A stretch of DNA of 64,000 bases from Planctomycetota bacterium (lineage in GTDB: Bacteria; Planctomycetota; UBA1135; JADKAF01). Below the pieces are notes generated by a model. That model made no database searches, was not told the origin of the DNA, and saw nothing but the letters and a program-made list of their open reading frames with translations. The stretch is taken from NCBI GenBank assembly GCA_016793245.1, contig JAEUHW010000030.1, forward strand, positions 1-64,000. The letters are read 5' to 3'. A program made the position numbers and the translations under genes. Shown here piece by piece: positions 14,164 to 59,407 of this stretch (position 1 is the stretch's first letter; every line of letters starts with the position of its first letter).

Positions 14164-14388
14164 ATGCGCGCGCATGACGTCGAGTGGGACGCGGGCGAGA
14201 TGGGCTGCGGCGAGCTCGTGGTCGAGCTGAAGCTCAAGTTCCGCGAGCTCGCGCCGCGCACCGTGCTCCGTCTGCGCGCGCTGGACAGCGGCGCGCTCGA
14301 GGACATCCCGGCGTGGTGCGGCCTGACCGGGCACAAGCTGCTCGAGGCCGCACATCCGCTCTACTGGATCCAACGCAAAGACAGCTGA
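14164..14388 (+). CDS. TusA-like sulfurtransferase-fold protein (CG variant)
   Basis: 74 aa matching the TusA/SirA/YedF fold: an N-terminal strand WDAGEMGC, a helix, PRTVLRLRALDSGALEDIPAWC, and a C-terminal IQRK strand. Cys15 occupies the position of the persulfide-carrying Cys of TusA, but the classical CPxP is CGEL. A second Cys (Cys52, PAWC) is shared with the TusA domain of the 14902-16389 protein. TusA proteins relay persulfide sulfur between partners. It starts eight nt after the S9 peptidase stop, 19 nt before the DsrE-like gene. The loss of both motif prolines makes the chemistry uncertain. Confidence 0.75.
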   Translation: MRAHDVEWDAGEMGCGELVVELKLKFRELAPRTVLRLRALDSGALEDIPAWCGLTGHKLLEAAHPLYWIQRKDS

Positions 14389-14407
14389 TCAAGAAGGACC
14401 GACCGCG

Positions 14408-14767
14408 ATGGGCAAGTTCTGCGTCTCCCTCACCTCCGCGAAGAACGACCGCGACAAGGCCACCGTCGGCTTCGTGGTCGCGAACGCCGCCGTCGGCTCC
14501 GATCAGGAGACGATGGTGTTCCTCAGCACCGAAGGTGTCCGCCTCGCCGAGCGCGGCTACGCCGACGACATCCGCGAGGAGGGCTTCGCCCCGCTCGCGG
14601 AGCTGATGGCGAAGTTCACCGCCGCGGGCGGCAAGATCTTCGTGTGCTCTCCGTGCTTCAAGAAGCGCGGCCTCGACGAGACGAAGCTCGTCCCCGGCGC
14701 GACCATCGTCGGCGGTGCGAAGCTCGTCGAGTTTCTGGCCGGCGGCTCCCCCTGCGTCACCTACTGA
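14408..14767 (+). CDS. DsrE family protein
   Basis: 119 aa. DsrE/TusD-type fold with the late Cys pair VCSPCFKKRG (Cys80 and Cys83) in the position of the active Cys of the family, then GATIVGGAKLVEFL. DsrE-type proteins usually accept or pass on sulfur together with TusA partners. It lies between a free TusA-like protein and a TusA-containing fusion, which supports a shared sulfur-relay role. Ends seven nt before a 37-nt palindrome. Confidence 0.85.
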   Translation: MGKFCVSLTSAKNDRDKATVGFVVANAAVGSDQETMVFLSTEGVRLAERGYADDIREEGFAPLAELMAKFTAAGGKIFVCSPCFKKRGLDETKLVPGATIVGGAKLVEFLAGGSPCVTY

Positions 14768-14773
14768 CCGCCG

Positions 14774-14810
14774 TTGCACAGTAAAGGTGCCAGGCACCTC
14801 TACTGTGCAA
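14774..14810. repeat. GGTGCCAGGCACC palindrome, copy 1
   Basis: A 37-nt inverted repeat with arms TTGCACAGTA...TACTGTGCAA around the core AAGGTGCC-A-GGCACCTC, one arm mismatch. It lies seven nt after the DsrE stop. Same core as copies at 14838, 23969 and 59371. A potential terminator or mobile REP-type element; no associated transposase is in the window. Confidence 0.9.
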
Positions 14811-14822
14811 TGACCCGTGGTT

Positions 14823-14840
14823 CAACGGCTGACGCCGTTG
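14823..14840. repeat. Short hairpin with CTGACG loop
   Basis: Stem CAACGG/CCGTTG around the loop CTGACG. Reverse complement of the core of the palindrome at 24-55. It lies between two GGTGCC-type palindromes and shares its last three bases with the second. Confidence 0.6.
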
Positions 14841-14874
14841 CACAGTAAAGGTGCCTGGCACCTTTACTGTGCAA
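14838..14874. repeat. GGTGCCTGGCACC palindrome, copy 2
   Basis: A perfect 37-nt inverted repeat around a central T, with TTGCACAGTAAA arms identical to copy 1. It ends 27 nt before the start of the TusA-MetE fusion gene, so it lies in that gene's leader. Confidence 0.92.
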
Positions 14875-14901
14875 TGGAATCCGAGCGGTGACGGAGTGGC
14901 G

Positions 14902-16389
14902 ATGAGCGCGGAGCGAGGAGCGGCGGCGAGCTTCGACGGCGGGGAGCTCGATTGCGGAAGCGGGCTGTTGCTGCTGATCCGTCAGCACATCGATCCGCTC
15001 GCGCCCGGCGAGGTGCTCGAGCTCTTCTCGAGCGAGCCGTCGGTGAGCGAGGACCTGCCCGCGTGGTGCCGCCTCACCGGGAACGAGCTGCTGCGACACG
15101 AGAAGCACGGCGCGCGTCTCCGCTTCCTCATCGCGAAAGGCGGAGCGACTCGCCCCGTGGCGTCGCCCGCTCTTGCACCGCGCGCAAGCGCACGGACCGC
15201 GCTCGCGCTGCCGCCGCTCGCGGTCGGTGGGATCGGCTCGTGGCCGCGTCCGGCGTGGCTGCTGGAAGCGCTCGCTGCGCGGCTCGAAGGGCGGATGAAC
15301 GACGCCGAGTTCGAAGCGCGCGCGCAGGACGCGGTCGAGCTCTGCCACGCCGCGCAGGTCCGCGCCGGCGTCGACTTCGTCACCGACGGCGAGCAGCGCC
15401 GCGATGCCTACGCGAGCTTCGTCGGCGCGCACCTCGACGGCTGCCGCTTGATCCCGCTCGTCGACCTGCTGCCCTACGTCGATGACCCGCAGCACTTCGC
15501 GGCCGAGCTCGCCGCTCTCGACATCCGCGCGCAGGAGGTGCGCCATCCCGCGGTGTTCGGCCCGCTCGCCCGCCGCGAGCCGTTGGCCCTCCGCGAAGCC
15601 GAGCATCTGCGCACACTCGGCGAACGACCGATCAAGGTCGCGCTGCCCGGACCGTATCTGCTGACGCGCACGATGTGGCTCGAGTGCGTGAGCGAGCGCG
15701 CCTATGCGACGCGCGAAGCCCTCGCGCGCGACGTGGTGCGCGTGCTCCGAGAGGAGCTCACCGACCTCCTCGCGGCCGGCGTCGCGCTGGTGCAGCTCGA
15801 CGAACCCGTGCTCACCGAAGTCGTGCACGGCGTACCGGCCGAAGCCGCGCGCGCGCAGCGCAGCTTCATGTGCGGCGCGCTCGGCGCGAAGCTCGACGTC
15901 GCGAACGAGCTCGCTTTCGCCGAGCAGCTCCTCGCGGAGGTCGCGCGCGGGTTCCCGAGAGAACGCTTGGCGCTGCACGTCTGCCGCGGCAACTGGTCCG
16001 CCGACGAGTCGGTGGCGCTCCGCGGCAGCTACGCGCCGCTGCGCGAGCTCCTCTTCCGCGCGCCCGTGGGCACGCTCTTCCTCGAACTCTGCACGCCCCG
16101 CGTCGGCGAGCGCGAGCTCCTGCTCGAGCTCCCCTCCGACAAGTGCCTCGGCATCGGCGTCGTGAACCCGAAGGTCCCGCGCGTCGAGTCGCTCGCCGAG
16201 ATCCGCGCGCTGGCCGAGCCGTTCCTCGCCCGCCTCGGCGCCGATCGCGTACGGCTCACGCCCGATTGCGGCTTCGCGACCTTCGCCGGGAACCCGCTCG
16301 CCTCCGCACGCATGGCCGAGGCCAAGCTCGCGGCGATCGCCGCCGCCGCGAGCGAGCTGCGCGGAACGACGGGAGGCGGGCTCAACTGA
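14902..16389 (+). CDS. TusA-like domain fused to cobalamin-independent methionine synthase core (MetE C-terminal-like)
   Basis: 495 aa in two parts. Residues 1-80 are a TusA-like domain with Cys18 (DCGSG in place of CPxP) and Cys56 (PAWC), very close in pattern to the free protein at 14164. Residues about 110-490 are a TIM-barrel of the MetE C-terminal family, with probable zinc ligands His359 and Cys361 (HVCRGN), Glu395 (FLELC) and Cys456 (PDCGF). It lacks the MetE N-terminal half that holds methyl-folate, so the methyl donor or substrate may differ, as in core-MetE proteins. It could make methionine from homocysteine, or transfer an alkyl group from another thiol. An in-frame ATG at 14851 lies inside the palindrome and is rejected. 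Confidence 0.85.
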   Translation: MSAERGAAASFDGGELDCGSGLLLLIRQHIDPLAPGEVLELFSSEPSVSEDLPAWCRLTGNELLRHEKHGARLRFLIAKGGATRPVASPALAPRASARTALALPPLAVGGIGSWPRPAWLLEALAARLEGRMNDAEFEARAQDAVELCHAAQVRAGVDFVTDGEQRRDAYASFVGAHLDGCRLIPLVDLLPYVDDPQHFAAELAALDIRAQEVRHPAVFGPLARREPLALREAEHLRTLGERPIKVALPGPYLLTRTMWLECVSERAYATREALARDVVRVLREELTDLLAAGVALVQLDEPVLTEVVHGVPAEAARAQRSFMCGALGAKLDVANELAFAEQLLAEVARGFPRERLALHVCRGNWSADESVALRGSYAPLRELLFRAPVGTLFLELCTPRVGERELLLELPSDKCLGIGVVNPKVPRVESLAEIRALAEPFLARLGADRVRLTPDCGFATFAGNPLASARMAEAKLAAIAAAASELRGTTGGGLN

Positions 16390-17397: not shown

Positions 17398-19434
17398 ATG
17401 CCTCCGAGCGAACCCCGGCGCCTCCTCGTCACCAGCGCGTTGCCTTACGCGAATGGAGCGATCCATCTCGGCCACCTGGTCGAGTACCTGCAGACCGACA
17501 TCTGGGCGCGCTATCACCGCCTCGTCGGGAACACCTGCTTCTACGTCTGCGCCGACGACACGCACGGCACGCCGATCATGCTGCGCGCGCAGAAGGAGGG
17601 GCTCGCGCCTGAAGCGCTGATCGCGCGGATGTCGGAGGAGCACCAGAGGGACTTCGCCGCGTTCGGCATCGCGTTCGACCACTACGGCTCCACGCACAGC
17701 GCCGAGAACCGCAAGCACACCGAGGCGATCTTCGCGGCGCTGCGCGCGCGCGGCGCGATCGTCGAGAAACAGATCGAGCAGGCCTACTGCCCGAAGGAGG
17801 AGATGTTCCTCCCCGATCGCCTGATCAAGGGCGATTGTCCGCGCTGCAAGACGGCGGATCAGTACGGCGACTCCTGCGAGAGCTGCGGCGCCACCTATGC
17901 GCCGACCGATCTCGGCAACGCGCGCTGCGCCTCCTGCGGCACGCCGCCGGTCCGCAAGGGCTCGCGCCATCTCTTCGTGCGCCTGCAGCACTTCCAGGAG
18001 TGGCTGCGCGCCTGGGTCCACTCGGGCACCGTGCCCGACGAGGTGGCGAACAAGCTCGACGAATGGCTGAAGGACGATCTCCGCGACTGGGACATCTCGC
18101 GCGACGAGCCCTACTTCGGCTTCCGCATCCCCGGCGAGGAGAAGCTCTTCTTCTACGTGTGGCTCGACGCGCCGGTGGGCTACCTCGCCTCCACCGAGCA
18201 GCTCCTCGCGCAGCGCCGCGAGCTCGGCCTCACCTTCGAAGACGTGTGGAAGAAGCCGGGCTTCGAGATCCACCACTTCCTCGGGAAGGACATCGTCTAT
18301 TTCCACACGCTCTTCTGGCCCGCCATGCTGCACGCCGCGGGTCTGCGCACGCCGGACAAGGTCCACGTGCACGGCTTCCTCACGGTCGACGGCGCCAAGA
18401 TGTCGAAGTCGCGCGGGACCTTCGTCTCGGCGCGCACCTATCTCGAGCACTTGGACCCGATCTACCTGCGCTATTACTACGCCTGCAAGCTCACCGCGCG
18501 CGTCGACGACCTCGACTTGAACCTCGAGGACTTCGTCGATCGCGTGAACGCCGACTTGGTCGGCAAGCTGGTGAACCTCGCGTCGCGCGCCGGCGGCTCG
18601 CTCCTCGACAAGCTAGACCGCCGCATCGGCGCCGTGCCGCCGAGCGGTCGAGCGCTGCTCACCGAGATCCGCGCGGCGCAGCGCGAGATCGAGGAAGCCT
18701 ACGAGCAGGGCGACTACGCGCGCGTCACGCGCACGACGATGGCGCTCGCTGATCGCGCGAACAAGCTCTTCAACGAAGAGGCGCCGTGGAAGTCCGTCGC
18801 CGCCGATCCCGAAGCCGCGCGCGGCTCGGTCACGACGGCGCTGAACGCGGCGCGCCTCCTCGCGGCGTACTTGGCCCCCATCGTGCCCACGCTCGTCGCC
18901 GATCTCGATGCGTTCCTCGGCGAGCCCACGCGCTGGAGCGCGCTCGGGCAGGACTTGAGTCCCCGCGCGCTCGCCCCCTTCCGTCATCTCCTCGCTCGCC
19001 TCGAAGGCGACAAGGTCCGCGCCATGATCGACGCTTCGAAGCCCGCTGAAACCACGCCGCCTCCGCCGCCCGCTCCGCCGAGCGCGCTGCAGAAGGACCC
19101 GCTCTCGCCGGAGTGCTCGATCGAGGACTTCGGCAAGATCGACCTGCGCGTCGCGCGCATCGCCGCGGCGGAGCACGTCGAGGGCGCGGGCAAGCTGCTG
19201 AAGCTGACGCTCGACCTCGGCGGCGGCACGACCAAGAACGTGTTCGCCGGCATCAAGTCCTCGTACGCGCCCGAGCAGCTCGTCGGTCGCTTGACGGTCT
19301 GCGTCGCGAACCTGGCGCCGCGCAAGATGCGCTTCGGGACCTCCGAGGCGATGGTGCTCGCCGCATCGAACGACGCCGGGCTCTACATCCTGAGCCCGGA
19401 CGCGGGCGCCGAGCCGGGGCTGCGGGTCAAGTGA
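17398..19434 (+). CDS. metG: Methionine--tRNA ligase
   Basis: 678 aa, the full length of the E. coli-type dimeric enzyme. Class I signatures are HLGHL (HIGH) in [12 protein letters not shown] near the N terminus and KMSKS around the middle. The zinc-binding connective peptide has four CxxC-type pairs (CPRC, CESC, CASC). The C terminus carries the tRNA-binding OB-fold domain ([13 protein letters not shown] to GLRVK). It charges tRNA-Met. The ATG at 17398 begins just before the Rossmann fold; the same frame is open further upstream but is antisense-like. Its stop overlaps the GTG of the next gene. Confidence 0.97.
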
Positions 19435-23968: not shown

Positions 23969-24007
23969 CTGTACAGTAAAGGTGCCAGGCACCTTTTCTG
24001 TACAGTG
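23969..24007. repeat. GGTGCCAGGCACC palindrome, copy 3
   Basis: A 39-nt inverted repeat with arms ACTGTACAGTAAAGGTGCC and GGCACCTTTTCTGTACAGT (one mismatch), four nt from the stop codon of the minus-strand S15 peptidase. The outer arms CTGTACAG differ from copies 1 and 2 (GCACAG) but match copy 4. Positioned to terminate the peptidase transcript. The rest of 23704-24011 holds the hairpin at 23725 and nothing else I can identify. Confidence 0.9.
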
Positions 24008-59370: not shown

Positions 59371-59407
59371 CTGTACAGTAAAGGTGCCAGGCACCTTTAC
59401 TGTACAG
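59371..59407. repeat. GGTGCCAGGCACC palindrome, copy 4
   Basis: A perfect 37-nt inverted repeat around a central A, outer arms CTGTACAGTAAA. It lies between two convergent genes, five nt from the parvulin stop and three nt from the radical SAM stop, filling almost the whole gap. Best placed of the copies as a bidirectional terminator. Confidence 0.93.

Follow-up and report, generated by a model that had tools for sequence, protein, structure and literature searches.

What would a sulfur relay contribute to a methionine synthase? Persulfides and thioethers have no methyl-donor role in known enzymology, so it is odd to find a methyltransferase paired with a sulfur relay. The question is raised by a 64,000-nucleotide stretch of DNA from a Planctomycetota bacterium (GCA_016793245.1, contig JAEUHW010000030.1, positions 1-64,000, forward strand), referred to here as the window. 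Three genes lying in the same direction (+ strand) inside 2.3 kb encode a free TusA-like protein (TusA1; 74 aa, 14164..14388), a DsrE-family protein (119 aa, 14408..14767) and a second TusA-like domain fused to a MetE core (TusA2~MetE; 495 aa, 14902..16389).

The open reading frames are as the preliminary description had given them, namely a free TusA, a DsrE protein and a TusA~MetE fusion devoid of the folate half, and Pfam agrees. TusA1 and the TusA domain of the fusion score 35.6 and 34.3 bits, respectively, with the Pfam TusA model (PF01206, cut-off 28.6), and the DsrE protein, whose nearest solved structure is the DsrE/DsrF-like 3mc3, scores 52.6 bits with PF02635 (cut-off 22.7). The fusion reaches 89.8 bits with Meth_synt_2 (cut-off 21) and displays the zinc ligands H-x-C, E and C; the folate-half model Meth_synt_1 stays under its cut-off and the reading frame has no such half. 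Its AlphaFold model (mean pLDDT 86.6, pTM 0.82) matches the fold of MetE and of the core synthase 3rpd with an E value of about 1e-21. Counting residues from the ATG at 14902, alignment to E. coli TusA places the TusA2 domain at residues 11-81 (14932..15144, +), and the Pfam match, the model and the fold match place the core MetE-like TIM barrel at residues 105-490 (15214..16371, +). The replacement of CPxP by CG, also claimed previously, holds: when the fusion is aligned with E. coli TusA, its cysteine falls on that of CPxP and a glycine stands for the proline. Of the pattern said to be common to both domains, the Cys-Gly pair is real, but PAWC is nothing special, being the equivalent of DIPGFC in ordinary TusA, and its cysteine is replaced by alanine in 10 of 86 fusions.

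Scores of 28.3 and 31.1 bits with canonical TusA (NF001423, cut-off 78) place the TusA-like sequences outside that equivalog, and membership of YedF is contradicted by the separate TusA and DsrE genes and by their motifs, CG and CxPC. The fusion scores 69.9 bits with full MetE (TIGR01371, cut-off 929.95), 94.6 with the MesD model PRK09121 (cut-off 392), 66.5 with the MesA model PRK00957 (cut-off 258) and 129.6 with PRK04326 (cut-off 406), and there is no DUF1852 (MesX) gene among its neighbours in the window. The fusion family is under every curated methionine-synthase cut-off, and it is unlike MesB and MesC in lineage and context.

Two details of the locus itself had to be revised. A start of the fusion at GTG 14851 had been proposed, but this codon sits within a palindromic repeat and the conserved start lies nearer ATG 14902, for which reason the latter is preferred. 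The repeat has the core AGGTGCC[TA]GGCACCT flanked by CAGTAAA arms. Of its four copies in the window, two (at about 14771-14814 and 14835-14878) lie in the gap between the DsrE gene and the fusion, and the others are near 23980 and near 59382. A link to metG (17398-19434) had also been suggested; however, a pilin-like gene stands between metG and the cassette, and none of the other loci that we examined has metG close by, so that its adjacency here is due to chance. Besides the pilin-like gene, the neighbours of the cassette in the window include a peptidase gene.

Is the arrangement peculiar to this contig? When species genomes were scanned, 360 related stretches came up. The best 80 of these, with 55-67% identity to the fusion, were retained; they come from Planctomycetota, Burkholderiales, Binatota, Myxococcota, Rokubacteria and others, which rules out an assembly artefact or a one-off architecture. 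Among these best 80 of 360, the DsrE gene is found at 77 loci, one of the three exceptions ending at a contig edge, and a free TusA is also found at 68, most Binatota loci being without it; the genes are usually a few tens of bases apart. A second search, seeded with DsrE alone, found this gene in 3 of 337 alphaproteobacterial, 13 of 349 Burkholderiales and 5 of 195 Myxococcota genomes. Nineteen DsrE loci were fetched from these three lineages, and in 17 of them a substantial TusA~MetE reading frame is adjacent (called shorter than full length in L135 and L143). Another locus, L141, retains the start of the fusion, the rest being lost at the contig end, and L145 contains TusA, DsrE and an ABC importer and no fusion. 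A planctomycetotal locus chosen since its genome had no MetE match (L151) likewise has no fusion. Across 392 Planctomycetota genomes, the MetE core occurs in 42 of the 44 with this DsrE as against 57 of 392 overall. The proposed co-occurrence of CG-type TusA and DsrE with the MetE core thus applies almost without exception, and the patchy distribution of the cassette suggests horizontal transfer. The DsrE gene is present twice in each of two Myxococcota genomes, G419 and G1155.

The carrier cysteines and the predicted active-site residues are well preserved too. Cys18 of the fusion (codon 14953..14955, +), the equivalent of the TusA CPxP cysteine, is kept in all 85 of the 86 aligned fusions that have this column, and the zinc ligands His359 and Cys361 (15976..15984, +; aligned with those of MetE, MesD and the type II enzymes), Glu395 (16084..16086, +) and Cys456 (16267..16269, +) are invariant in 86 of 86, although the peptide patterns used in the homologue scan included the TusA cysteine and the last zinc cysteine, which inflates part of their conservation. 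Equally invariant (86/86) are Ser113, Glu164 and Asp300, predicted to bind homocysteine by correspondence with the MetE residues named in PMC7857596. In the carrier proteins, C15-G16 of the free TusA is invariant in 88 of 88 aligned homologues, with CG in place of CP throughout, and the C80-x-P-C83 motif of DsrE in 114 of 114 proteins. Neither of the two outcomes that the preliminary description had named as fatal to its proposal, an arrangement unique to this contig or a lack of conservation in orthologues, is what we find: the arrangement recurs in many lineages, Cys18 and the zinc ligands do not vary, and the carriers co-occur.

The cassette comes in more than one form. In the fused form, TusA1 and DsrE accompany TusA2~MetE. 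Planctomycetota commonly have a split form, whose TusA1 and DsrE accompany a TusA2~OsmC protein and a separate MetE core, so that the same parts are linked by a second arrangement too. In a third, OsmC-linked form (L106, L109 and L116), the MetE core occurs with OsmC and a PhnD-like binding protein but has no TusA or DsrE beside it. The zinc and homocysteine residues on the MetE side are invariant in the split and OsmC-linked forms as well, and all three forms have Cys324 (15871..15873, +), which follows a low-confidence loop in the AlphaFold model and is not found in MetE, MesD or the type II enzymes. In the tree, the MetE cores of the three forms make up one group, with support of 94/94 that narrowly misses the starred threshold, apart from MesD, full MetE and the type II enzymes, with the caveat that the outgroup branches are long and their placement unsure; true MesD with DUF1852 falls outside the family of the cassette, and the fused form makes up one side of a branch with support 97/99. 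A peroxidase role of the OsmC domain can be rejected, as an alignment of 14 TusA~OsmC proteins shows no conserved cysteine within OsmC. Internal TGA codons read as selenocysteine in the fusion family were discarded as well: in L010 and L013 the flagged stops fall where the protein ends, at its C-terminus, and that in L012 lies upstream of the separate MetE gene.

Given that the cysteines of the carriers are invariant, the zinc-homocysteine site is complete and the linkage is near-obligate, TusA1, DsrE and TusA~MetE very likely form a functional unit, as judged from sequence and models. Most likely this unit would transfer a group to homocysteine, the second substrate being brought by TusA2. 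In the scheme that we propose, DsrE (via CxPC) and TusA1 (via Cys15) would hand on a group bound to their thiols, and Cys18 of TusA2 would receive it. TusA2 is part of the same chain as the core MetE barrel or, in the split form, encoded beside it; the barrel, having bound zinc and homocysteine, would then pass the group on to the homocysteine thiolate. Methionine would thereby be formed from a methyl donor other than methyl-folate, under special conditions and alongside MetH. The direction of the relay, homocysteine as the substrate, methionine as the product and an imported small anion as the source are what we infer.

That the cassette would act beside another methionine synthase is consistent with the gene content of its carriers. 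The host of the window has a complete MetH and no full MetE, and a complete MetH scoring over the cut-off is present in all nine carriers from other phyla, which rejects the cassette as the sole methionine synthase. Each of the Planctomycetota carriers tested also has MetH or MetE, some of the MetH matches being partial: in G006 and G011 they end near position 855 of 1182, and the fusion carrier G002 combines a partial MetH with a full MetE. Because MetH or MetE occurs in the host and in the carriers tested, we regard the cassette as accessory. The reading that we tentatively favor, and to which we attach a sizeable if minority share of our belief, is that a TusA/DsrE relay feeds an accessory zinc-homocysteine enzyme, which might make methionine from a donor other than methyl-folate beside MetH.

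How does this compare with the known core enzymes? Of the four described families of core MetE, MesD alone has been reported to require a dedicated partner protein, MesX. MesD/MesX (Price et al. 2021, PMC7857596; structure 3rpd) resembles the cassette in having a MetE core without the folate half, the same zinc and homocysteine residues and, in many genomes, an accessory position beside MetH. It differs in its partner, which is DUF1852 instead of TusA/DsrE, and the cassette enzyme has the extra invariant Cys324, a separate branch in the tree and a PRK09121 score below the cut-off. MesA, MesB and MesC (PMC7857596) are likewise core MetE proteins lacking the folate half, but they come from methanogens or Wood-Ljungdahl organisms. 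Our literature search found no paper on TusA together with a core MetE, nor on TusA together with OsmC and DsrE. The cassette enzyme is perhaps a fifth family of core methionine synthases. A bolder version of this idea is somewhat doubtful. In it, the fifth family would make methionine (or selenomethionine) independently of folate and B12 from a donor that sits on a protein thiol of the TusA/DsrE relay, and chalcogen trafficking would be physically coupled to homocysteine chemistry. The cassette looks like an accessory route, not described before, for chemistry on homocysteine. Because the near-obligate partner set comprises three short, clonable genes, both donor and mechanism are directly testable; if our proposal were true, TusA/DsrE carriers might have a role in methionine or selenium metabolism. 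Several points count against methionine synthesis: the pairing with a sulfur relay is odd, MetH or MetE is present anyway in the host and in the carriers tested, the OsmC-linked form has a MetE core without TusA or DsrE neighbors, and methionine synthesis alone leaves unexplained the recurrent importers and the acyl-CoA dehydrogenase-like neighbor described below.

Alternatively, the zinc-bound homocysteine (or a similar thiol) could be a chalcogen acceptor that takes sulfane sulfur or selenium from TusA2, so that thiosulfate sulfur or selenium would be assimilated or detoxified without any movement of a methyl group. We consider this unlikely, while granting it a real chance. In its favor, all the carrier proteins have an invariant cysteine, and it has precedents. 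DsrE3A and TusA of Metallosphaera, encoded side by side, carry and transfer thiosulfonate via their cysteines (PMC4175335), but they serve dissimilatory sulfur oxidation and have no methionine-synthase-like partner; the TusA-like YeeD acts with the thiosulfate importer YeeE (PMC11073785). Like YeeE-YeeD and YedE-YedF (PMC5322559), a fused-form cassette (L127) combines TusA-like and DsrE-like carriers with a membrane importer: a YedE-family putative selenium transporter gene (L127:8683-9765; 390 bits with TIGR04112, cut-off 200) overlaps that of the free TusA. Unlike the cassette, with its separate genes, CG and CxPC motifs and MetE core, YedF unites TusA and DsrE in one protein, with the motifs CPxP and CGxC. 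YedE has been reported to be exclusive to selenium users and often adjoins SirA(TusA)-like genes, and in Paracoccus ferrooxidans selA and trxB follow the fusion. However, YedE was seen at one locus and selA in Paracoccus only, and the YedE-bearing genome, G185 (82% complete), has no SelD match over the cut-off. Neither does SelD separate carriers from non-carriers in Planctomycetota (34/39 vs 28/30), Burkholderiales (15/17 vs 18/22) or Myxococcota (4/4 vs 10/10), the exception being a small alphaproteobacterial sample (3/3 vs 2/13), and an obligate link to selenium is therefore rejected. Moreover, a complete methionine-synthase site exceeds what a sulfur acceptor needs.

A further possibility, suggested by the neighboring genes, is that alkyl transfer serves to use or detoxify a small anionic compound, organosulfur or other, that the importer brings in. 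The carriers would bind this compound through a mixed disulfide or a thioether bond, from which the zinc thiolate would strip off the alkyl group. Many Burkholderiales, and also Alphaproteobacteria, have genes for phosphonate-type ABC importers between DsrE and the fusion, and such genes adjoin the cassette in one Rokubacteria and one Myxococcota locus (L074 and L028); PF12974 binding proteins with no evident export signal occur in L100, L106, L109, L116 and L073. In L073, L109 and L116, the MetE gene adjoins one for an acyl-CoA dehydrogenase that is nearest to the Rv1679 family and has SfnB and 3-sulfinopropanoyl-CoA desulfinase among its relatives. Against this stand the variation of importer type by lineage, the many carriers with no importer nearby and the retention of all homocysteine-binding residues, and we hold the proposal to be unlikely. 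That the TusA domain is a mere docking or structural module on an ordinary or degenerate relative of methionine synthase is the least probable of all, for although TusA-like domains are small and common and the split form exists without covalent linkage, the MetE site is complete and a pure docking domain would not need the invariance of Cys18, of the CG cysteine of the carrier and of CxPC.

Returning to the accessory methionine-forming enzyme that we favor, its surroundings point to a module common with the uncharacterised Rv1679-Rv1680-Rv1681 genes of M. tuberculosis (NF049984, NF049985 and NF049973), on which our literature search found nothing functional. The likeness lies in the neighbors at L073, L109 and L116. 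The Rv1679 and Rv1680 models are the best matches of the acyl-CoA dehydrogenase and the binding protein in L073 and L116, all below the equivalog cut-offs; in L109, where the dehydrogenase alone was scanned against NCBIfam, this too matches the Rv1679 model best, below the cut-off. The Rv1680 model is the best match, again below its cut-off, of the binding protein in L106. The Rv1681 model matches the TusA domain of the fusion weakly (E 0.006), but it describes a radical SAM protein with no MetE core. In L073 (8208-10371), the Rv1679-like dehydrogenase and the Rv1680-like binding protein are encoded directly downstream of a fused-form cassette.

Further neighbors recur in individual lineages. 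A ThiH-like radical SAM protein is encoded upstream of TusA in three related loci, and PADLOC gave no phage-defence match. A transglutaminase-like exported protein occurs at 15 loci in a phmmer tally, and one is so annotated at the Paracoccus locus. In Paracoccus, Bordetella and some Oxalobacteraceae, two proteins take the place of the importer: a small one in the membrane and a periplasmic one of 505 aa. The pair has no match among the Pfam and NCBIfam models scanned, and the structure model of the periplasmic protein is poor (pLDDT 43.5). The two genes, with a CLGC motif in the small membrane protein, lie inside the cassette at L095:6832-8916 and L027:3817-5883. Finally, the free TusA exists in long forms (L043:4107-4685, L006:432-1082 and L035:5638-6201) with an N-terminal cysteine-rich region that contains CxxC pairs and often histidine.
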